Source: a virus
IMG/VR virus record: IMGVR_UViG_3300046755_000228
Coordinates: 1-28,694 of that record
Direction: 5' to 3' (one strand)
Length of the DNA: 28,694 bases
Part shown: piece after piece, positions 4,171-28,002 of the stretch
Numbering within the stretch: the stretch's first letter is position 1
How the letters are laid out: the number at the start of each line of letters is the position of its first letter
Notes under the pieces: model-generated
Seen by the model: the letters and a program-made list of their open reading frames with translations, nothing else
What the model was told of the DNA's origin: nothing
Databases searched by the model: none
Position numbers and translations under genes: made by a program

Positions 4171-4176
4171 TTACAC
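4171..4176 (-). promoter_or_regulatory. GTGTAA motif before tape measure gene
   Basis: GTGTAA on the minus strand ends 8 bases before the ATG at 4162, in the short gap after the previous gene's stop. It is one of about ten copies placed this way; a promoter role is inferred. Confidence 0.55.
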
Positions 4177-6457: not shown

Positions 6458-6463
6458 TTACAC
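6458..6463 (-). promoter_or_regulatory. GTGTAA motif before 165-residue gene
   Basis: GTGTAA on the minus strand, 10 bases before ATG 6447, directly abutting the T run of the preceding terminator, so a stop signal and a putative start signal lie back to back. Confidence 0.55.
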
Positions 6464-7724: not shown

Positions 7725-7730
7725 TTACAC
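7725..7730 (-). promoter_or_regulatory. GTGTAA motif before tail tube gene
   Basis: GTGTAA on the minus strand in the gap between the 287-residue gene and the tail tube gene, 28 bases before ATG 7696; the longer leader is AT rich. Confidence 0.45.
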
Positions 7731-8599: not shown

Positions 8600-9192
8600 T
8601 TTGAAAGCCGCCTGTAAAAGTTATTTAACATTTTAGAAACGTAAGGTGTATTTCTAAATCGACCACCTTTAGATTTAGTTACTTGAATAGCTCTGCCAGA
8701 ACGAGAAGACCTCACATTTGCACTCTTAAACATATATCTACCCAAACCAGATATGCCTTTTTCTACACCGTCAAGCCAACTTCTGCCAATACTCCACGGT
8801 ATAGGTGTGCTTTCTTCTAATTCTTTTTTAGTGGGTGCATCAAGCTGCACTGTGAAGCGCCCAAAACCAGCTTTTAAAACTTTAGATTTGATTGGCCTTG
8901 CTAATCTTGTTTTTACAACCGCAGTTGGATTAGTCCCTCTGTTGAAACCAATGAAAGAAAAAAGATTCCCTCTTCCTCCTAAAGTTCCAGAGATATTGGA
9001 GGCACTTGGTCCACCATCAATCTCTTGCGTAACAGGATGATTTTCGTATTCTATTATAAGATCATCCTGAGATTTTTTGATCTTTTTGTCTACTTCCGTT
9101 TTTACAATATTCGACGTAACCTTTAGATTTTTACCCGCACTAAGCTCTCCTAAAAGTTTTCTTTGATCAATATGAACAGTTGTTTTAGCCAT
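8596..9192 (-). CDS. Putative neck / tail completion protein
   Basis: 198 residues, basic overall. The segment near residues 50-85 (NHPVTQEI, then SGTLGG.GNLFSFIGF) is a motif I have seen in structural proteins of uncultured marine phages, without a firm function. The C-terminus is rich in Arg, Lys and Ser. The ATG at 9192 lies inside the last codons of the preceding gene and its own end overlaps the next gene by 4 bases. A role like the HK97 gp10 tail-completion family is a possibility from size and location; unconfirmed. Confidence 0.72.
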   Translation of the reverse strand: MAKTTVHIDQRKLLGELSAGKNLKVTSNIVKTEVDKKIKKSQDDLIIEYENHPVTQEIDGGPSASNISGTLGGRGNLFSFIGFNRGTNPTAVVKTRLARPIKSKVLKAGFGRFTVQLDAPTKKELEESTPIPWSIGRSWLDGVEKGISGLGRYMFKSANVRSSRSGRAIQVTKSKGGRFRNTPYVSKMLNNFYRRLSK

Positions 9193-10136: not shown

Positions 10137-10142
10137 TTACAC
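10137..10142 (-). promoter_or_regulatory. GTGTAA motif before connector gene chain
   Basis: GTGTAA on the minus strand, 11 bases before ATG 10125, in the 29-base gap after the 118-residue gene. Confidence 0.5.
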
Positions 10143-15986: not shown

Positions 15987-15992
15987 TTACAC
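15987..15992 (-). promoter_or_regulatory. GTGTAA motif deciding the portal start
   Basis: GTGTAA on the minus strand, preceded by TTTTT, 8 bases before ATG 15978. The same arrangement at other genes argues for this ATG over the upstream TTG. Confidence 0.55.
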
Positions 15993-16005
15993 AAAAAGTC
16001 GCCAA

Positions 16006-16139
16006 AGTTAAAAAATTGTTGACTTTTATATCTTTCTTATTTGTATTTTATTAAAAGCAAAAAGAAAAAACAATTTAAAAGAATAAATATTATATTCAGT
16101 ATTCTAAGTCTTGGTATTAGCCTTGTGTAATACTTATAA
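16006..16139. other. Divergent AT-rich intergenic region
   Basis: 134 bases between the minus-strand portal and the plus-strand metallopeptidase gene. It holds poly-A/T tracts and a TTGACT (16019-16024) without a convincing -10 box at normal spacing, plus the GTGTAA motif for the plus-strand gene at its right end. No hairpin with GC content is seen. Confidence 0.5.
16125..16130 (+). promoter_or_regulatory. GTGTAA motif before plus-strand metallopeptidase-like gene
   Basis: GTGTAA on the plus strand, 9 bases before ATG 16140, followed by TACTTATAA. Its presence on the opposite strand shows the motif follows gene starts and not a strand bias. Confidence 0.55.
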
Positions 16140-17489: not shown

Positions 17490-17520
17490 TTACACATTAA
17501 ACGATTGAATATATGTGTAA
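17490..17520. promoter_or_regulatory. Back-to-back GTGTAA motifs in an inverted repeat
   Basis: A minus-strand GTGTAA (17490-17495, 6 bases before the endolysin ATG) and a plus-strand GTGTAA (17515-17520, 9 bases before the lipoprotein ATG) form inverted ATTACACAT / ATGTGTAAT arms about 10 bases apart, pointing outward to both genes. Confidence 0.55.
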
Positions 17521-18039: not shown

Positions 18040-19932
18040 TCAAGCGCCAAAAGGAGTGAAGGTGTCAAACGTCTTTACCTCTTCTGTTGTATTCATCGCG
18101 TCAAAATAAGTTTTGATAGCCCAATTTCCCAATACAAGCGCAGAATAATTATCTTTTCTTGGTTTGTTCGGTCCAGTTTGACGAGACATATGTGGCGGCA
18201 ATCTAAAGGTTTGAGAGCCTTGAGGATTTGTCACCACTTCTACATTAGCACACTGTTGTTTTGTCTGTTCTATTTTAGAAACCTGATGATCTAAGAAATC
18301 AATTTTAGCAGCACCAGAAGATTGTTTTTTAACTCTTGTATCCCATTTCAAGTTTTCAATAGGAATATTTTTCTTCCGTTGTTTGTTAAAATTTTCATCA
18401 TGTGCTGGAGCAGCAAATAATATTCTTTTATGGTCGATGTTAGCTTGGAGCAATTCATTCGCTTGTCTAATCCAATTAGAAGAAGGCTTTCTTAAAATAC
18501 AATACTTATGCTGAGTCGGAGCCAGTTCTCTTTTGAAGGTATTTAAATCTTTAAGGTATGTCTCAGGCTTATCAAACTCGCCTTCTGTCTCTATGCCACT
18601 AAGATGAATTTTGCTTTCTTTAAATAGCTCACTCTCGTTGCAAGCAGAAACAAACTGAACGCCGCCAGCATAATCCAATACAACGCATTGAACATTAAAA
18701 TTAGTTATTAGATAATGGAAATACTGAATATGTTTTTTCAACCCTGTTCCAGCAAGACCGTAAGCATGGACCAGACAGCCCTTCTGAGAGCTTTCGTCTA
18801 ATTCGAATACTTCCATAGCAAAATCATCAGAGCCGCTGTCCTCAGACCAAGAGGGGTCAATTGCGACCACATACTTGCGGTCAGGGTTCCCCGCTATCTG
18901 AACAAAAGGTGCATCTCCGTCTGGAACTGTGCAAGCTGCCATTTTAGAAAGCTTAAAATATGAATCTGATTCTGATACAAATTGACCTCCATATTCTTTA
19001 TTGAATACAGCCTCAGACATAGTTTGCTTTGCTACTTGAAGCTGATTTTTGTCGTAAAGAGCCTTTGGCGCACAATCGTAACTCAATTGAAAGATAATTC
19101 TGTAGGCATCTGCATCAAACTCTTCATCTGCATCAGTTCTAATATCAACACCTAAGATAGCATCTCTATATTGACAATAAAGTTCATACATATACTCGAA
19201 AGTATAAGAAGGAGAAGAAAGCATGATAAGTTTGTTGTTGATCCATTTATACCTATCCTCCTCTTTCATTTTTCCATTGGCAATCAATTCGTCCTCTAAG
19301 GATGCCAAGTCTTCTCTCTCTGTTGGGTTGTCGATAACCCCAAGAAAAGGCAAAATGACTTCTTGAAAAATATTTTTTGGAATATTTAAAAACTCATCCA
19401 ATAGTAGAACAGAAAAACGAAAACCCCTGAGTCGAGAACCGTCTGCTAAAGGTAGTGCCATAGCTTTGCTCATTCCACAACTCAAAGTCCATTGATCTGT
19501 TCCTTTCTGTAAAGTGAACATAGGAGATGCCATAGCAGCGGCGGGTTTTTTGAGTATGTCTTCGCATTTTTGCAATATAAACTTAGCTTGTCTAAAACCA
19601 CTAGAAAGAACTCCAATATTTATGCCTTGTCTGAATATTAATTGAAGCATCACATAAATCGCAGCAGACCAAGTTTTAGACATACCGCGAGACAATACAA
19701 ACATTGAGAAGTCACCAATCATCATGCCCTTGATAAGCATTGCTTGAAAAGGGAAAAGCTTCATCCCAATAATCATCTCTGATGCCAAGGAAATATTATT
19801 CCTTAAAAATTTACATAAAAGAACTTTAGCTTCGCCCTCTTGGATGAAACCTTTTTTCTCTAATATCTCTTCGTTTATAGCCCTCGCAGAATACTCCATG
19901 CGATGACCTTGAATTCCTTTACTCCAAGCCAT
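18040..19932 (-). CDS. terL: Terminase large subunit
   Basis: 630 residues. It is the ATP-driven DNA packaging motor and genome-cutting nuclease. In the ATPase part, residues 80-88 (LSRGMSKTW) are the Walker A region, with Ser where the usual Gly stands before Lys-Thr; Walker B is VLLLDE (175-180) and the coupling motif is LSSPSY (238-243). In the RNase H-like nuclease part, D359 (in VVAIDPSW) and D420 (in VVLDYAGG) are likely metal ligands, with a later Asp near DNYSALVLGNW. The ATG overlaps the ERCC4 gene by 14 bases, so the two are probably translated together. The start is supported by this coupling. Confidence 0.95.
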   Translation of the reverse strand: MAWSKGIQGHRMEYSARAINEEILEKKGFIQEGEAKVLLCKFLRNNISLASEMIIGMKLFPFQAMLIKGMMIGDFSMFVLSRGMSKTWSAAIYVMLQLIFRQGINIGVLSSGFRQAKFILQKCEDILKKPAAAMASPMFTLQKGTDQWTLSCGMSKAMALPLADGSRLRGFRFSVLLLDEFLNIPKNIFQEVILPFLGVIDNPTEREDLASLEDELIANGKMKEEDRYKWINNKLIMLSSPSYTFEYMYELYCQYRDAILGVDIRTDADEEFDADAYRIIFQLSYDCAPKALYDKNQLQVAKQTMSEAVFNKEYGGQFVSESDSYFKLSKMAACTVPDGDAPFVQIAGNPDRKYVVAIDPSWSEDSGSDDFAMEVFELDESSQKGCLVHAYGLAGTGLKKHIQYFHYLITNFNVQCVVLDYAGGVQFVSACNESELFKESKIHLSGIETEGEFDKPETYLKDLNTFKRELAPTQHKYCILRKPSSNWIRQANELLQANIDHKRILFAAPAHDENFNKQRKKNIPIENLKWDTRVKKQSSGAAKIDFLDHQVSKIEQTKQQCANVEVVTNPQGSQTFRLPPHMSRQTGPNKPRKDNYSALVLGNWAIKTYFDAMNTTEEVKTFDTFTPFGA

Positions 19933-20845
19933 GTCTTTGATCTAAAAAATATTGAAAATCGCAATCCCATAAAATAGGACCGTTAAATAATATACGCTTT
20001 GTTATATCGTTAGCTTCTTCTCTGCTATCGCAGAATACAATTTGACTGCTCTCTGGATAAGAAAGAAGAAAGTTTCTTACGTTATGAAAGATGTAATTTA
20101 GTTTGGAAGGATGCCTAGAACTCTCATTTTCTTGTTCTATTTGCTTTATGCTGGCTTCAACAACTACAAAAAGATAAGAGTCAAACTGCTTTGCCCTTTG
20201 CGCTTCTTGTTTGAACCTTTGATAGCCTTTTCCAAATGTTCCTTTGAAATCTTCTAAGCTCTTTCTGTCTACATAAGTTTTATTAAAAAAATTTCCAGAA
20301 GCAACGTAGTCGCCAAAATCTAATTTATTGATAATGCTATTTTTAAATTCAAAAGGCTTTTGCTCTCTAGTGTCTACAAAGACCGTCATTTCATCTAGTC
20401 CCTTGTCTCTATCCCAAAAGCTCTTAGGCAATTTTTCTGTATATATTTGCCTCAAATCAGATTGATCAGCAAAACAAGCACAAGATTCAAATAATTTTTT
20501 GATAACCTTAACACCAGAGAGCTTACTAAATTTAAAATAATTATCACAAGGAATAAAGTCTATGTTTTTATATTTAGCATGAGCTAAAAATTCTTCTAAA
20601 TATACTTTACGGGATTCTGAAACTGACGCAGAAGAATAATAAGCCTCTCTGTTTTCTGATGAATTGAAAAATGTAGAGAAGTATTTGTCCCTGCTCTTGA
20701 ACTTTATTAGAAATCCATCGTGTAAGTCTAAGCGAGGATAGTGGGTATGGTAATATACCTCTTGACCTCCATGAACCTTAACGTGGGAATGAAGACCTCT
20801 TAGTGTTTTAAATGTAGCGCCACATTGTTTGCAAGTAACACTCAT
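19919..20845 (-). CDS. C2H2 zinc finger + ERCC4-type nuclease
   Basis: 308 residues. A classical zinc finger lies at residues 5-25 (C5, C8, H21, H25; spacing C-x2-C-x12-H-x3-H). Residues 153-240 are an ERCC4/XPF-like nuclease: DTRE at 158-161, GD at 178-179, DRKxxxD at 193-199 (the family has ERKxxxD, here Asp for Glu) and a VVVEAS strand. The family cuts branched or flapped DNA. A middle region (30-140) is not recognised. Wedged between the DNA-binding candidate and TerL with overlaps at both ends, it may trim or resolve branches for packaging, as T4 endonuclease VII does; this is inference. The start ATGA overlaps the preceding stop. Confidence 0.87.
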   Translation of the reverse strand: MSVTCKQCGATFKTLRGLHSHVKVHGGQEVYYHTHYPRLDLHDGFLIKFKSRDKYFSTFFNSSENREAYYSSASVSESRKVYLEEFLAHAKYKNIDFIPCDNYFKFSKLSGVKVIKKLFESCACFADQSDLRQIYTEKLPKSFWDRDKGLDEMTVFVDTREQKPFEFKNSIINKLDFGDYVASGNFFNKTYVDRKSLEDFKGTFGKGYQRFKQEAQRAKQFDSYLFVVVEASIKQIEQENESSRHPSKLNYIFHNVRNFLLSYPESSQIVFCDSREEANDITKRILFNGPILWDCDFQYFLDQRHGLE

Positions 20846-21906
20846 AAGAGTTCTTCTTTGCTTGTTCCAAATATACGAGCTTTGTATTCGTCTAAAGATT
20901 CTAATCTATCTGCCTCTTCTTCAACAAGCGACAGTCTTTGTTCTGCCATCATTACTAGCCTTTGTCTTTCCTCTTCGTCTTGAAAGGCTTCTACTAAAGA
21001 AAGAATGTTTTGAGTGTTTACCCCTTTTTTCTCTAGTTTTTTGGCTCTATCGCCATTTAGTTTTTGAGTTAAGCTTTCGATTCTTTTTTCACAAGCGTTC
21101 AACTCTTCGTTGGTTGCCTTAATATGTTCTGTAAGGCGCATATTGATGTCTTGACTTTCAAGCTCCTCATTTTCAAGCATATCCGTAAAAATATCCATTC
21201 TGTTTTGAATGTGCTTGGCCCTTACAAAATTAGAACAAATCATCATGTAAAGGTTAAGTTCATCAGTGGTTAAATCTGGTTTATCCCATGTCGCTCTTAC
21301 AAATTCTGATTCAAACAAATCCCTGTCTGCATCTGTTCGATAAGCATTAACTGTAGTAATTAATTTATGAATGTTTAAATACTCAAGTAGCTTTTCCGTA
21401 TTCTTCCTTTGCTTTGCAGGAAGTTCATCAGGGTTTTCTTTTAAATTTGTGCCGCACCACTTGTTGCACCTTCTGATAGCCATAGAATGAGACTTTGGGG
21501 AGTGCCATTTTCCATCTGCGGCTTTAGCACTTGAGTCAATTATATCTGGTCTGAACTTTTCTAAAAATTCAATAACCGACCTGTGATTTGCATCTAGTGA
21601 TTTAACGTCAGGTGTTTGAAATACAACTCTTGCAATCTCAAGAGGGGTCATTGACGAAGAAACTTGACTAGACATCAAAACAGACTTTTGACTTTCTGTT
21701 AATTGAACATTGGTTTTTTTTGTGCTTTTAGTTGTATTGTATTTCATTCCCTCTGAAACAAGGAAATCTCTAACCGCACGACCTTCTTGCGATCTGCCGT
21801 CAAGGTCTTCGTTTTTGAAAACGTTTTTGGTAATCTCAATCAGGTCTTGAGTCACTTTAAAAGTGTTTCTAATAGCCTCCCTCTGCTCTGCTGTTAGCTC
21901 AATCAT
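20842..21906 (-). CDS. Putative DNA-binding coiled-coil protein, possible terminase small subunit
   Basis: 354 residues. Residues 4-53 and 69-118 look like a duplicated helical module: each begins LTxxQ, has an EIxxxVF helix and ends near VxxFL, as for tandem helix-turn-helix domains. Residues about 220-345 are Glu/Lys/Leu-rich and coiled coil. Its place two genes before TerL and overlap with the ERCC4 gene fit a small terminase subunit or other packaging factor, but the length is well above usual small terminases. Assignment is by order and architecture only. Confidence 0.7.
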   Translation of the reverse strand: MIELTAEQREAIRNTFKVTQDLIEITKNVFKNEDLDGRSQEGRAVRDFLVSEGMKYNTTKSTKKTNVQLTESQKSVLMSSQVSSSMTPLEIARVVFQTPDVKSLDANHRSVIEFLEKFRPDIIDSSAKAADGKWHSPKSHSMAIRRCNKWCGTNLKENPDELPAKQRKNTEKLLEYLNIHKLITTVNAYRTDADRDLFESEFVRATWDKPDLTTDELNLYMMICSNFVRAKHIQNRMDIFTDMLENEELESQDINMRLTEHIKATNEELNACEKRIESLTQKLNGDRAKKLEKKGVNTQNILSLVEAFQDEEERQRLVMMAEQRLSLVEEEADRLESLDEYKARIFGTSKEELL

Positions 21907-22586
21907 TATTCAATAATGTCTTCAGAGTTAAGTATTTCACGGGCTAATTCAGCAAATCTCTTTTTTAGGTTATCTAATTGCTTATACCGCTTTTTCTTTT
22001 TGGCGCTTTCTGGTTTGAAACCCATTTTAGAAGCCACTTCTTCGTCAGATTTTTTTTCAAGAAACAACATTGTATAGACCTCTTTGTGTCTTTCATTGTT
22101 TAATTCTCTTAAAACTATATTATGTAATTTATCTGCGCTTTTTTCGTAATCGAATTCATCATATAACTCCGTTGAAGCTGTTATAACCCTACCTTCTAAT
22201 GGCAGAGGTAATTTAACATCGTAAACTTTTTTCTTCTTTTTTAGCCACTTAGCATAATCTGGACAGGAATCGTCTTGCTGTTTTGATCTTGTAAATGCAC
22301 ATCCATCTTCAGAAACATAATGCTTACATCTCAAACACGGTTTAGAAAAAGTAAGGTAATGATTCCTTATTAAATTTCTAATTTGATTCTGAACGACCTG
22401 TCTGCACCACGGTTTAAACGGTCTTTCTTGTATCCATAAATCCCATTTCTCATTGATGTGAATACGGATTATCTGTTTTACATCATCGTAATCAAACCAT
22501 TGAATAGCATCTAATTGCCATTTACTCCTATTTATGTCGAGAAGCTGATCAATCTCTTCGATCTTGTCTTCGAAGCTTTCTCGCAT
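21906..22586 (-). CDS. Sigma-factor-like transcription protein with zinc insertion
   Basis: 226 residues. Residues about 28-80 resemble sigma region 2 (IRIHINEKWDLWI, then FKPWCRQVVQNQIRNLIRNHY-like helices). A cysteine cluster follows (C84, C87, C96, C108), probably binding zinc. Residues about 163-212 resemble region 4: an LNNERHKEVYTMLFL helix, DEEVASKMGF as helix-turn-helix, and a basic recognition helix with KKKKRYKQL. The layout is like late-gene sigma factors of T4 gp55 type and sigma-like genes in uncultured marine phages. It should direct host RNA polymerase to phage late promoters; the GTGTAA motif is a candidate target (inference). The ATG follows the zinc-ribbon gene stop by 4 bases. 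Confidence 0.8.
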   Translation of the reverse strand: MRESFEDKIEEIDQLLDINRSKWQLDAIQWFDYDDVKQIIRIHINEKWDLWIQERPFKPWCRQVVQNQIRNLIRNHYLTFSKPCLRCKHYVSEDGCAFTRSKQQDDSCPDYAKWLKKKKKVYDVKLPLPLEGRVITASTELYDEFDYEKSADKLHNIVLRELNNERHKEVYTMLFLEKKSDEEVASKMGFKPESAKKKKRYKQLDNLKKRFAELAREILNSEDIIE

Positions 22587-22590
22587 GTTA

Positions 22591-22956
22591 TCACTTGCCG
22601 AGTTCCCTGCTTTTAGTCACCTTACCAAATTCTTTCATGGTAGATTTAACTACATCTTTCCCCTTGAAACCTTTGGGGCGATGATGCCGCGCAGAAGGTG
22701 CATCAGATCCAGCAATAGACCCGAATGTAGGAAAGCCAGAGTTGTCTACTTGAGTAGACCAGCCTTGAGATAATTTATCTTTGTTTAATTGAGGCATTTG
22801 CTCAGATTCTTCTAAAACCTCTTCTTCAGAAGAATTAGCTCTAGAGACGATAGCACCGCCTACGTTAAAAGGTTGCCCACATCCAGCGCAGAATTTAGGC
22901 TTAACGCTCTCAAATAAGTTTTTATGTCCACACTGGACGCAAAATTCGTGCATCAT
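22591..22956 (-). CDS. Zinc-ribbon protein
   Basis: 121 residues. Residues 6-26 form a zinc ribbon (C6, C9, C23, C26; CxxCG twice). The rest is hydrophilic and probably disordered, with Ser/Glu runs and a basic C-terminus (RPKGFKGKDVVKS). It leads the overlapping set that contains the sigma-like factor, ERCC4 nuclease and TerL, so it may act in transcription or DNA processing. Two adjacent ATGs can start it; GTGTAA lies 13 bases upstream of the first. Confidence 0.75.
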   Translation of the reverse strand: MMHEFCVQCGHKNLFESVKPKFCAGCGQPFNVGGAIVSRANSSEEEVLEESEQMPQLNKDKLSQGWSTQVDNSGFPTFGSIAGSDAPSARHHRPKGFKGKDVVKSTMKEFGKVTKSRELGK

Positions 22957-22969
22957 TACAAAATTTTGG

Positions 22970-22975
22970 TTACAC
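22970..22975 (-). promoter_or_regulatory. GTGTAA motif before zinc-ribbon/sigma/terminase gene set
   Basis: GTGTAA on the minus strand, 13 bases before the first ATG at 22956. It is the only such motif before the five coupled genes that end with TerL. Confidence 0.5.
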
Positions 22976-23062: not shown

Positions 23063-23983
23063 ATGAATAAATCACTTTTCAAGTTGATACCAGAGAGGAT
23101 AAATCATTCTAATAAAAATAGGATACCTTGTTTTTGTATTTTCTATGCGCCAAGATTCTCATTTGACCAAAAAGACGCTCATCGCTCTAAGAATTTATGT
23201 AAAGAAGATTTAAAAAATATTACTGTAAAAGGGGGCAAAGGCTTTTGGGATACATACGTTAAAAATTTCTTAGACTTTTCAGAAGAGAATCATTGCGCGG
23301 TAGCAATTTCTAAAAATATATTTAATATAATTTTGCCAGAATTGAGCGATAATGTCGATGTTTTTATTTTTGAAGATCCTTTGTTGATTGGACACGGAGC
23401 TTGTTTTAGATATTGTTTGTTAGATTTTTATAAATCAGCCCTCTTCTTTGACACTGACCATTCAGCAGATACGGTGTTAGGCTCTCAAGAAATAATTCAT
23501 TCTGTATTAAAACAAAATCGTGGCGTAGAATTTATAAGAAGGAACCCTGCTTTGTCTCCACTAGGAAATAAGGAGTTTTACAGACATACAATGGGTTCTG
23601 GAATCTATATAAAAAACATAGGGGTTTCAATAGCCTCGTTTTTTCAAGATCAAATTCCAATTGGTTTTTCTGTCGATGATTGGCTAAATATCGACGGAAC
23701 GCAGAACAATTATGAAAAAGAAAATAATACTGTAAGGAGATTCTCGACTACATATCAGAAACCTAACTTTAAATATACTGCAAAAAAATGGGCAGACTTC
23801 CCCTACTACGGATATGACGAATTTTTGTTAGGTTTATTGTATGAAAAAAAATATAAAGAAAGAGAGAAAAATGCACTTATTAGTGATTACAGATCAAATG
23901 AAAAGATTTTTAATAAACCAACATTTAAGAAAGAAAAATATCTAAAAGATATTGAGGAAACAAAAACTGTTTATGAATTTTGA
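23063..23983 (+). CDS. Putative glycosyltransferase-like protein
   Basis: 306 residues from ATG 23063; an upstream in-frame TTG (23018) would overlap the promoter boxes and is rejected. The segment ALFFDTDHS (126-134) has a DxD-like pair (D130, D132) after a hydrophobic strand, as in nucleotide-sugar transferases, and a GYDEFLLGLL segment occurs near residue 250. This is weak family evidence, but the neighbours (FkbM methyltransferase and sulfotransferase-like) fit glycan modification. The gene is AT-rich and on the plus strand, unlike its surroundings, suggesting acquisition. Its end overlaps the next gene by 11 bases. It could instead be an uncharacterised enzyme. Confidence 0.65.
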   Translation: MNKSLFKLIPERINHSNKNRIPCFCIFYAPRFSFDQKDAHRSKNLCKEDLKNITVKGGKGFWDTYVKNFLDFSEENHCAVAISKNIFNIILPELSDNVDVFIFEDPLLIGHGACFRYCLLDFYKSALFFDTDHSADTVLGSQEIIHSVLKQNRGVEFIRRNPALSPLGNKEFYRHTMGSGIYIKNIGVSIASFFQDQIPIGFSVDDWLNIDGTQNNYEKENNTVRRFSTTYQKPNFKYTAKKWADFPYYGYDEFLLGLLYEKKYKEREKNALISDYRSNEKIFNKPTFKKEKYLKDIEETKTVYEF

Positions 23984-24560
23984 TTTTATAGAGATAGGCG
24001 CTAATACTTGGAGAAACCTATACACAAGAAAAAACGGTATTGGGATAATCATAGAACCTGTTACCGAATATTTTAAGAAAATACCTAGTTTGCCCAATTT
24101 GATTAGGATAAACGCTGCCATAGTCGATGACAAGGTAGAATTACGCGAAGATGGGCGTATAGAGTTTTTCTATTTTTCTGAAAGTTACATTCCAGAAGAT
24201 AAACCTTGGCTAAGAGGTTGCGGATCAATTTTTCCCAATCAAAACAGAAATTTTAATGAATACAAAAAAAGAACTGTTGTGCCAGCGATAAACATCAGGT
24301 CTTTGTTTCAAACTTACGATGTTAAAGAGGTTGATTACCTAAAATTTGATGTAGAAGGCATGGACTCTCGACTTCTTTACTCTTTACTGACTTGGAACAA
24401 ATGCCCTTTTATCAAAACAGTCCAATTCGAAGCTAACATAAAAACAAATCAAAAAGACCTAGAATTAGTAAAGTCAGCTTTGATAGAAAAAGGTTTTGAA
24501 ATAATAAAAGAAACTAAACAGGATATTATTGCGGAGAACAGAACAATTGAAACACTTTGA
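23973..24560 (+). CDS. FkbM-family methyltransferase
   Basis: 195 residues from ATG 23973 (a TTG at 23952 is also in frame). SAM-binding motif I is DFIEIGANTW (4-13), an acidic residue follows a second strand (IIIEP, E28), and VDYLKFDVEGMD (120-131) is the typical FkbM C-terminal motif. Members O-methylate sugars or small molecules, often in polysaccharide clusters. Starting at residue 4 the domain has almost no N-terminal extension, so it is short but complete-looking. It overlaps both neighbours, forming one operon with the promoter at 23021. Likely target is a surface glycan of the host or phage. Confidence 0.85.
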   Translation: MNFDFIEIGANTWRNLYTRKNGIGIIIEPVTEYFKKIPSLPNLIRINAAIVDDKVELREDGRIEFFYFSESYIPEDKPWLRGCGSIFPNQNRNFNEYKKRTVVPAINIRSLFQTYDVKEVDYLKFDVEGMDSRLLYSLLTWNKCPFIKTVQFEANIKTNQKDLELVKSALIEKGFEIIKETKQDIIAENRTIETL

Positions 24561-25221
24561 AATAATCACTGTCGCGAAAGTGGGAAGCTCTAGTTTTAAA
24601 AATAATCTAGAAAAAAAATACCCATGTCACCACTCCCATAATTTGTTAAGATTAAAAAAATCTTTAAGCAAAGGGGGCGCAACAATTGTATCTGGAATAA
24701 GAAATCCAATAGATAGAAATTTATCTTACTTCTTTCAAACTTACAAAGACAAATTTTTTAATTCTTTTAAGACAAAACAAAATAAATACCAAGGCGAATA
24801 TTGCTTTGTTGAAGAATTAAAAGAGTCAGAAGAAGTGGATGATTATACCAAAGCCTTCTTCAATCAAAGTTATTTGTTTTCTTTCAACGAATGGTTTGAA
24901 GAATTTCTTGATATAACCGAAATCAAAGACTTTGATAAACAAAAAGGATACCAATTATATGATTTAGGAAATGATAACAAATTATTCTTTTACAAATTAG
25001 AGGATTTAAATTCTAATATAGACGAAATTAAAACTATATTTGATTTGCAAGAATGGAACACCACTAATGTTGGTAGTAAAAAAAAATATAGTGCAATATA
25101 TAAAAAGACCAAAGAACAAATACAATATCCACAAGAATACCTCGATAGACTTTTAACAACAGATACTATGAAAATATTTTATACAGAAGATGAAATAAAT
25201 TCATTTTATTCAATTAAATGA
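24547..25221 (+). CDS. Sulfotransferase-like / capsular polysaccharide protein
   Basis: 224 residues from TTG 24547; TTG 24529 is an alternative. GGAG sits 10 bases before TTG 24547, and the conserved part begins immediately with FEIITVAKVGSSSF, the 5'-phosphosulfate loop pattern (K11, G13, S14-S16). A second block IRNPIDRNLSYFF (51-63) holds the R and S residues that bind the PAPS 3'-phosphate. The pair resembles sulfotransferases and the NKWYS capsular polysaccharide family. It would add sulfate or act on a sugar chain. It overlaps the FkbM gene and its stop overlaps the convergent phoH stop by 8 bases. No terminator is visible there. Confidence 0.75.
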   Translation: MKHFEIITVAKVGSSSFKNNLEKKYPCHHSHNLLRLKKSLSKGGATIVSGIRNPIDRNLSYFFQTYKDKFFNSFKTKQNKYQGEYCFVEELKESEEVDDYTKAFFNQSYLFSFNEWFEEFLDITEIKDFDKQKGYQLYDLGNDNKLFFYKLEDLNSNIDEIKTIFDLQEWNTTNVGSKKKYSAIYKKTKEQIQYPQEYLDRLLTTDTMKIFYTEDEINSFYSIK

Positions 25222-25891
25222 TTTGTTCTATTTGATCTAATATGAAAGAAATAACTTCGTCTCTTTGAATATCTTCTTTGTCAAAAGCCAAATGATACAC
25301 GCCATTTTCTTTAGCTAACTCGCTATCAAAAAGCTTACATAACTGAGAAAAGCCAGAATTCTTAATATCGCTTTGAAAAGCGTCTCCACAAATAAAAAGC
25401 CTTGTCCCTTTATTCATTCTGGTAAGAACCGTGATCAATTCTTTCATCGTTGCGTTCTGCATTTCATCAGCTATTACAACGCGCTGTTTCCAATCCTGAC
25501 CTCTGATAAAGTTCACAGGAGAGCCAAGTAAAGCATTACTTCTTTTAAGTCTTTGTTTATCTGGTGCTTGTAGCATCTCATCCACTTTTTCTTCTAAAGG
25601 AGCTAGATAAGGACTGAATTTCTCATCCTCGCCGCCTTTGAGGTATCCCAAACTTCGTTCGGCAGATTCTACGACAGTTCTTAAATAAAGAATGTCAGAG
25701 CAATCTCCATCCGACCATAAAGATAAAGCTGTATAGATTGAAAGAAAAGATTTAGAAGAACCCGCTGGACCCGAAAGGAATACCACTTTTGTTTTTGGGT
25801 CTGACATGATTTTGAAAAATTCATGCTGCTTTTTGGTGAGTTCTATGTGCCTCATGTTGAGGCCCGACCTAGAGGTTGATTTCTGAGGCAT
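25214..25891 (-). CDS. phoH: PhoH-family ATPase
   Basis: 225 residues. Walker A is GPAGSSKS (41-48), Walker B is VVIADEMQNA (138-147), and GDAFQSD (169-175) is a PhoH-type sensor motif. PhoH-like proteins are P-loop ATPases related to helicase domain 1, widespread in marine phages, and linked with RNA or phosphate-stress functions that remain unclear. The Walker A has Ser in place of the usual Gly-Lys context, as noted in some phage members. A GTGTAA motif lies 10 bases before the ATG. It converges on the sulfotransferase-like gene with an 8-base overlap of ends. Confidence 0.92.
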   Translation of the reverse strand: MPQKSTSRSGLNMRHIELTKKQHEFFKIMSDPKTKVVFLSGPAGSSKSFLSIYTALSLWSDGDCSDILYLRTVVESAERSLGYLKGGEDEKFSPYLAPLEEKVDEMLQAPDKQRLKRSNALLGSPVNFIRGQDWKQRVVIADEMQNATMKELITVLTRMNKGTRLFICGDAFQSDIKNSGFSQLCKLFDSELAKENGVYHLAFDKEDIQRDEVISFILDQIEQII

Positions 25892-25901
25892 ATATAATAA
25901 A

Positions 25902-25907
25902 TTACAC
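25902..25907 (-). promoter_or_regulatory. GTGTAA motif before phoH
   Basis: GTGTAA on the minus strand preceded by AAAAA, 10 bases before ATG 25891. Confidence 0.5.
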
Positions 25908-26684: not shown

Positions 26685-26690
26685 TTACAC
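26685..26690 (-). promoter_or_regulatory. GTGTAA motif before 147-residue gene
   Basis: GTGTAA on the minus strand, 15 bases before ATG 26669, the largest spacing among the near-start copies. Confidence 0.45.
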
Positions 26691-27956: not shown

Positions 27957-28002
27957 AACAGTTATTCTCTATTTATTATTATACACCGTTTCTTTAACTT
28001 TA

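Follow-up and report, generated by a model that had tools for sequence, protein, structure and literature searches.

The 28.7-kb IMG/VR virus record analysed here (28,694 nucleotides, hereafter the window) encodes a genuine, divergent sigma-70-family (ECF-like) factor. This protein probably acts as a late sigma that turns the host core RNA polymerase to promoters made of a lone −10-type GTGTAA element, with transcription predicted to start nine bases further on. The co-occurrence of factor and motif and the −10-like geometry of the sites strongly suggest that GTGTAA is read by the phage sigma, and the gene content points to a late timing of the programme.

The phage sigma factor and its gene unit

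The sigma gene product (226 aa; 21906..22586, minus strand) was assigned with the sigma70-ECF profile TIGR02937 (E=7.8e-9, residues 31-198; 35.4 bits, below the cut-off of 42.9) and by fold search. Compared alone with Pfam, it gave weak matches to Sigma70_r2 (E=0.033, residues 30-76) and Sigma70_r4_2 (E=0.14). A profile search against PDB sequences was discarded, its top matches being apparent chance hits to SATB1, with CnrH only at E=2.7. Among the 21 aligned relatives, TIGR02937 and Sigma70_r2 were matched by all 21 (best E=3.3e-14 and 4e-8, respectively) and Sigma70_r4_2 by 8, and in nine of ten long contigs Sigma70_r2 was above the curated Pfam cut-off. The PDB and viral fold matches of an AlphaFold2 model (pLDDT 72, pTM 0.38; confidence reasonable inside the domains and not for their arrangement) were overwhelmingly sigma factors. 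Superposition with VIA-align has placed the sigma2-like domain (residues 2-79; 22350..22583, minus strand) on RpoE (5uxx_A; Z 8.2, rmsd 2.4, 75 residues) and the sigma4-like domain (residues 149-225; 21912..22142, minus strand) on SigA region 4 (6ono_D; Z 8.4, rmsd 1.9, 66 residues). The region 2- and region 4-like parts proposed in a sequence-only reading of this DNA are therefore confirmed. That reading had named T4 gp55 and ECF sigma factors for the structural comparison; a sigma fold is predicted, with the sigma2 plus sigma4 architecture of ECF factors and not that of T4 gp55. The protein is called ECF-like, and not a canonical ECF factor, because there is no −35 element, if GTGTAA is the element of this sigma.

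A four-cysteine cluster said to separate the two regions was also borne out. The motif C84-x2-C87-x8-C96-x11-C108 (22263..22337, minus strand) forms a compact insert right behind sigma2, between the two domains, in a protein with no C-terminal extension. The four cysteines are invariant in 21/21 aligned relatives, and also in the ten most divergent ones, and a zinc site at this position is likely.

The sigma gene follows, in one unit, a gene for a 121-aa zinc-ribbon protein (22591..22956, minus strand) with an invariant CxxC..CxxC pattern, and its place beside the terminase, also noted earlier, is upstream of the large terminase gene in a conserved cluster. The zinc ribbon directly precedes the sigma in 26/26 loci, and in all 26 these two genes are followed by those for a 350-370-aa protein and the C2H2/ERCC4 nuclease; TerL comes after the nuclease wherever the contig extends that far, and PhoH is usually the upstream neighbour of the zinc ribbon. 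The corresponding genes of the window, all on the minus strand, encode a conserved helical protein of 354 aa (20842..21906), a C2H2 finger plus ERCC4 nuclease (19919..20845; Pfam ERCC4 1.2e-6, phrog_3490 1.3e-13), TerL (18040..19932; phrog_2 3.7e-24) and the PhoH-like ATPase that heads the sigma unit in most relatives (25214..25891; Pfam 1.6e-39). PhoH and zinc ribbon, adjacent in most relatives, are parted in the window by three plus-strand genes (23063-25221; 306, 202 and 230 aa), of which the 202-aa gene looks FkbM-methyltransferase-like and the 230-aa gene sulfotransferase-like by eye. In this arrangement PhoH and the zinc ribbon are each preceded by their own GTGTAA.

The strict linkage of the two genes suggests that the zinc-ribbon protein could be a sigma cofactor, as had been proposed. 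The neighbours of the sigma gene (PhoH, zinc ribbon and 354-aa protein) were also looked at for a cognate anti-sigma gene, and the zinc-ribbon protein could conceivably have that role. Profile and model fold searches with the 354-aa protein revealed no family and no clear fold match; an HK97 small terminase appeared far down the list (E=2.3) and was not taken as evidence. This protein could be a small terminase, a guess from its position, or a transcription coactivator.

A search with TerL retrieved 79 loci (37-99% identity), and the sigma is encoded in all of those with sufficient sequence upstream of TerL. The search of IMG/VR with the sigma alignment confirmed at least 575 relatives. INPHARED (50,697 phage records) gave no match for the sigma or its most divergent relative, nor for the 354-aa protein or the zinc ribbon. 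No RNA polymerase beta-prime was found in the ten long contigs, which may be incomplete, so the use of the host core polymerase by these phages is the simplest explanation. In the 148-kb contig of the relative G011, genes recur at a distance of 124,371 bp (for example at 18872 and 143243), and the real genome is therefore probably about 124 kb long. The hosts are probably marine flavobacteria; the evidence from bacterial genomes is weak but concordant, with only two matches, in contigs binned as Flavobacteriaceae and Flavobacteriales.

Distribution of the GTGTAA motif

The bare count of GTGTAA in the window was barely above chance (17 versus 10.6 expected; at least 17 in 2 of 100 shuffles), and position-anchored tests were therefore used, with gene starts called crudely (ATG, longest ORF). 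Eleven copies were located at most 46 nt upstream of an ATG, versus 0.43 expected. In a ranking of the 4,096 possible hexamers before gene starts, made without prior choice, GTGTAA was the best of all for the window genes (p about 1e-13). In the ranking by clade it was first in seven of nine sets and second in another small set, and it was not among the leaders in the 12-gene set from the most divergent relative. The ranking by whole contig placed it first in G001, G005, G012, G013, the window, L169 and L170, and second in G006 and G011. Across 1,759 distinct upstream regions, GTGTAA was found 6-16 nt before the ATG 208 times, versus 2 at a matched control offset, and the best-tolerated changes by the same comparison were GTGTAT (26 versus 5) and GTATAA (24 versus 5). 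A literature search on GTGTAA as a phage promoter gave nothing relevant.

Minus-strand sites in the window precede the zinc-ribbon/sigma unit (22970..22975; spacer to the ATG of 13 nt, or 16 to a second ATG), phoH (25902..25907; spacer 10), a 147-aa gene (26685..26690; spacer 15), the endolysin (amidase) gene (17490..17495; spacer 9 to the second ATG), the presumed portal gene (15987..15992; spacer 8, predicted leaderless), a 166-aa gene (10137..10142; spacer 11), a 391-aa gene of the structural block (7725..7730; spacer 28, a long leader with A at the predicted +1) and the tape-measure gene (4171..4176; spacer 8); another abuts a terminator hairpin and T-run (6458..6463; spacer 10). On the plus strand, GTGTAA is found before a 169-aa lipoprotein-like gene (17515..17520) and a 207-aa gene (16125..16130), both with spacer 9. 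From its sequence, a variant GTGTAT(AAT) before a 410-aa gene (27981..27986, minus strand; spacer 24) may be added. The portal label is presumed from size and position, with no profile match, and the tape measure was identified by homology to a G011 protein (phrog_4211 3.7e-49) and by its size.

Analysis by ortholog has revealed GTGTAA before 47 of 52 portal genes, 43 of 52 PhoH genes, 7/7 endolysin genes, 5/5 genes for the 147-aa protein, 6 of 7 tape-measure genes and, at 20-40 nt spacing, the 391-aa gene in 16 of 22 relatives. The five portal exceptions carry GTGTAG or GTGTATAA, so that GTGTA is found in 52/52 portals, and the PhoH exceptions are mostly start-codon miscalls with GTGTAA farther upstream. 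In contrast, it was absent before the operon-internal orthologs of sigma (0/71), the 354-aa protein (0/76), ERCC4 nuclease (0/79), TerL (0/70) and p204 (0/44). GTGTAA therefore marks the heads of transcription units and not every gene, and the shared motif at structural-gene heads claimed in the sequence-only reading has held up. This pattern also bears on the idea that GTGTAA is a translation or mRNA-level signal replacing the Shine-Dalgarno sequence, which is the least probable of the explanations considered. Its most frequent position, 8-10 nt before the ATG, would suit such a signal, and Bacteroidetes naturally lack Shine-Dalgarno sequences (PMC6847099). However, the motif is missing before hundreds of operon-internal genes, stands 20-40 nt from the start of the 391-aa gene and comes right after terminators.

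Just upstream of the portal GTGTAA, an inverted-repeat block of AAAGT/ACTTT words was observed in the window (about 15993-16030, minus strand) and in 52 related loci. Portals carried a mean of 3.65 of these words per 35 nt (52 sites), against 0.22 for the remaining GTGTAA sites and 0.15 for upstream regions that lack the motif, and the dense block is found at portal promoters only. Possible roles are those of a pac site, an operator or the binding site of an activator.

Factor and motif were found together, with the sigma in all adequate TerL loci and in 10/10 long contigs, and no relative that keeps the motif and lacks the sigma, a combination named beforehand as refuting, was found among them; this co-occurrence is confined to one virus lineage, so that sigma and motif do not count as independent across the tree. 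In three cultured phages of flavobacteria that have no such sigma, 0-1 GTGTAA were found upstream of genes, none at 5-16 nt, with no enrichment. GTGTAA sites are few in G007, the most divergent of the relatives that have a useful contig. An initial view that G007 lacks the motif was withdrawn in part, as GTGTAA-N12-ATG is present after TerL just inside the contig end, which matches the place where the portal gene starts in relatives. A second, stronger sigma2 match was observed in this contig (G007:C1, about 8985-9185, plus strand; E=2.7e-12), and it is possible that this second sigma serves an extra transcription class. The scarcity of sites and the second sigma in G007 are points against the proposed pairing of sigma and motif. 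A strong GTGTAA class in the hosts was considered and rejected: flavobacterial MAGs contained GTGTAA-N8..10-ATG 106 and 68 times versus 79 and 34 for the reversed control, at about 26-34 per Mb, in counts that were not anchored to genes and in MAGs that include phage contigs.

Promoter geometry and predicted start

The spacer between GTGTAA and the ATG was 8-10 nt in 63 of 118 non-redundant sites. It was shorter than 8 nt in none of 496 sites, except for 11 ATGATG starts, in which the second ATG lies 9 nt after GTGTAA, and one outlier. In the 31 sites with a spacer of at least 14 nt, where the ATG cannot cause the signal, the ninth base after GTGTAA was A in 24 and a purine in 27 (neighbouring A fraction 0.43, p=8.5e-5 before correction for the choice of offset), and at 185 GTGTAA copies elsewhere the fraction of A at this base was 0.34. 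The sharp spacer edge and the A signature coincide at the same base, which is therefore the predicted +1, with GTGTAA at −14 to −9. Several copies come directly after a terminator hairpin and T-run (e.g. the site at 6458), with no space for another core element, and GTGTAA is therefore probably itself the core element. The motif thus looks like a lone −10-type element from which transcription is predicted to start at the A nine bases further on. Its earlier description as a shared motif at structural-gene heads stands, and is refined here in that GTGTAA resembles a −10 element whose start lies about 9 nt away. As start codons do not lie upstream of the predicted +1, many late mRNAs should be leaderless, the commonest layout beginning at the AUG.

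A conserved −35 was not found in the 118 non-redundant sites, where the only upstream signal was A+T richness, nor was a second core element found from 55 nt upstream to 60 nt downstream of GTGTAA. The presence of a sigma4 domain when the −35 element is absent is a point against the lone −10 reading. A sigma4 domain would be consistent with GTGTAA being itself a −35-type element for sigma4, with the −10 about 16 nt downstream, as in phage 7-11, whose promoters begin with GTAAtg (PMC8948821). This is very unlikely, since no conserved element is present 14-20 nt downstream of GTGTAA, the +9 A signature and the spacer edge suit a −10, and the start would land inside genes, yet the portal N-terminus RKYTKRSEYW is conserved with synonymous variation.

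It is also conceivable, with a low probability, that GTGTAA is a true late promoter element read by another factor, such as an alternative sigma of the host, the zinc-ribbon protein or the 354-aa protein, the phage sigma acting otherwise; the zinc-ribbon and 354-aa proteins are linked as tightly as the sigma and could bind DNA. However, sigma2 domains recognize −10-type elements at a fixed distance from the start, the long contigs carry a single phage sigma each (two in G007), the model of the 354-aa protein shows neither family nor clear fold match, and the three flavophages without the sigma are also without the motif.

A second promoter class was recognized in the 148-kb relative G011, in which TTGAC-N14..18-[TG]TAnnnTT precedes 13 mostly small genes where 1.3 would be expected, the majority of them in the regions 9-24 and 106-146 kb, whereas GTGTAA precedes 19 genes versus 1.9 expected, many of them in the structural block. 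The early-type consensus is clear in G011 alone and weak or absent elsewhere. It is similar to the promoter of the primary sigma in flavobacteria, which has a TAnnTTTG −7 box (PMC9723704). Leaderless messages are rare in such hosts, at 5.5% in F. psychrophilum (PMC9723704).

Proposed late programme and its precedents

In the lone −10 reading, the phage sigma would dock on the host RNA polymerase core, with sigma2 on the beta-prime coiled coil and sigma4 on the beta flap, and would direct it to promoters consisting of one −10-type GTGTAA at about −14 to −9. Transcription would begin at the A nine bases past the element. With start codons at least eight bases past GTGTAA, mostly 8-10, many late mRNAs would be leaderless or carry leaders of 1-2 nt, and leaders of about 10-25 nt would be found at a few structural genes. 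In at least one relative, early genes would be transcribed from host-type promoters. A difficulty for the proposal is that GTGTAA also heads the unit that contains the sigma gene, and another source of first transcripts would therefore be needed; following an initial supply from read-through or a different promoter, the sigma would amplify its own synthesis. A fuller version can be advanced only tentatively: a factor built as sigma2-zinc-sigma4, for which the zinc-ribbon protein may be an obligate partner, and which recognizes no −35 despite its sigma4 and drives a largely leaderless late programme in which the start codon is the transcription start.

What is known of late transcription in phages comes from a small number of cultured ones. 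The closest precedents of the 226-aa sigma are phiEco32 gp36, phage 7-11 gp47 and T4 gp55. The phiEco32 gp36 protein directs host RNA polymerase to middle and late genes whose promoters have one element only, tAATGTAtA, transcription starting 6-8 bp after it, and the lack of a −35 has been attributed to the lack of region 4 homology in gp36 (PMC8948821). Both would be single-element phage sigmas, and the core TGTA is common to tAATGTAtA and GTGTA(A/T); the protein described here differs in having region 4 and a four-cysteine insert, in predicted leaders near zero and in a start predicted, from sequence only, at the ninth base. Phage 7-11 gp47 has region 4, as here, and transcribes late genes with the host core from a bipartite promoter, GTAAtg-(16)-aCTA (PMC8948821), whereas only one element is found in the present lineage. 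For the 7-11 sigma gene, host-type and phage promoters were proposed on sequence grounds (PMC4331800), and the host-type promoter was not found by later experimenters (PMC8948821). T4 late promoters consist of a lone 8-bp TATA box about one turn upstream, AT-rich downstream and without −35 conservation, and gp55, acting with gp33 and gp45, supplies the sigma2 function only, gp33 replacing sigma4 (PMC2988020). A lone −10 element without −35 conservation would be shared with T4, and the sigma4 domain present here is not. ECF factors (TIGR02937) are similar in having sigma2 and sigma4 in about 200 aa, and CorE (ECF238) also has linker cysteines, with a CXC between sigma2 and sigma4 and a required C-terminal Cys-rich domain (PMC8999054); here the insert is compact, has four cysteines directly behind sigma2 and is not accompanied by a C-terminal extension. 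What looks new is the combination of a sigma4 domain, an apparent lone −10 element and four invariant cysteines after sigma2.

An abundant uncultured lineage, with at least 575 relatives and no match among phage isolates, brings a testable promoter code. If the proposal is true, it would provide a natural example of a sigma that has region 4 yet does without a −35, and a new position for a metal site in a sigma factor, and late genes and operons would be predictable straight from metagenomic contigs. The GTGTAA system may also give tight, orthogonal promoters for flavobacteria.
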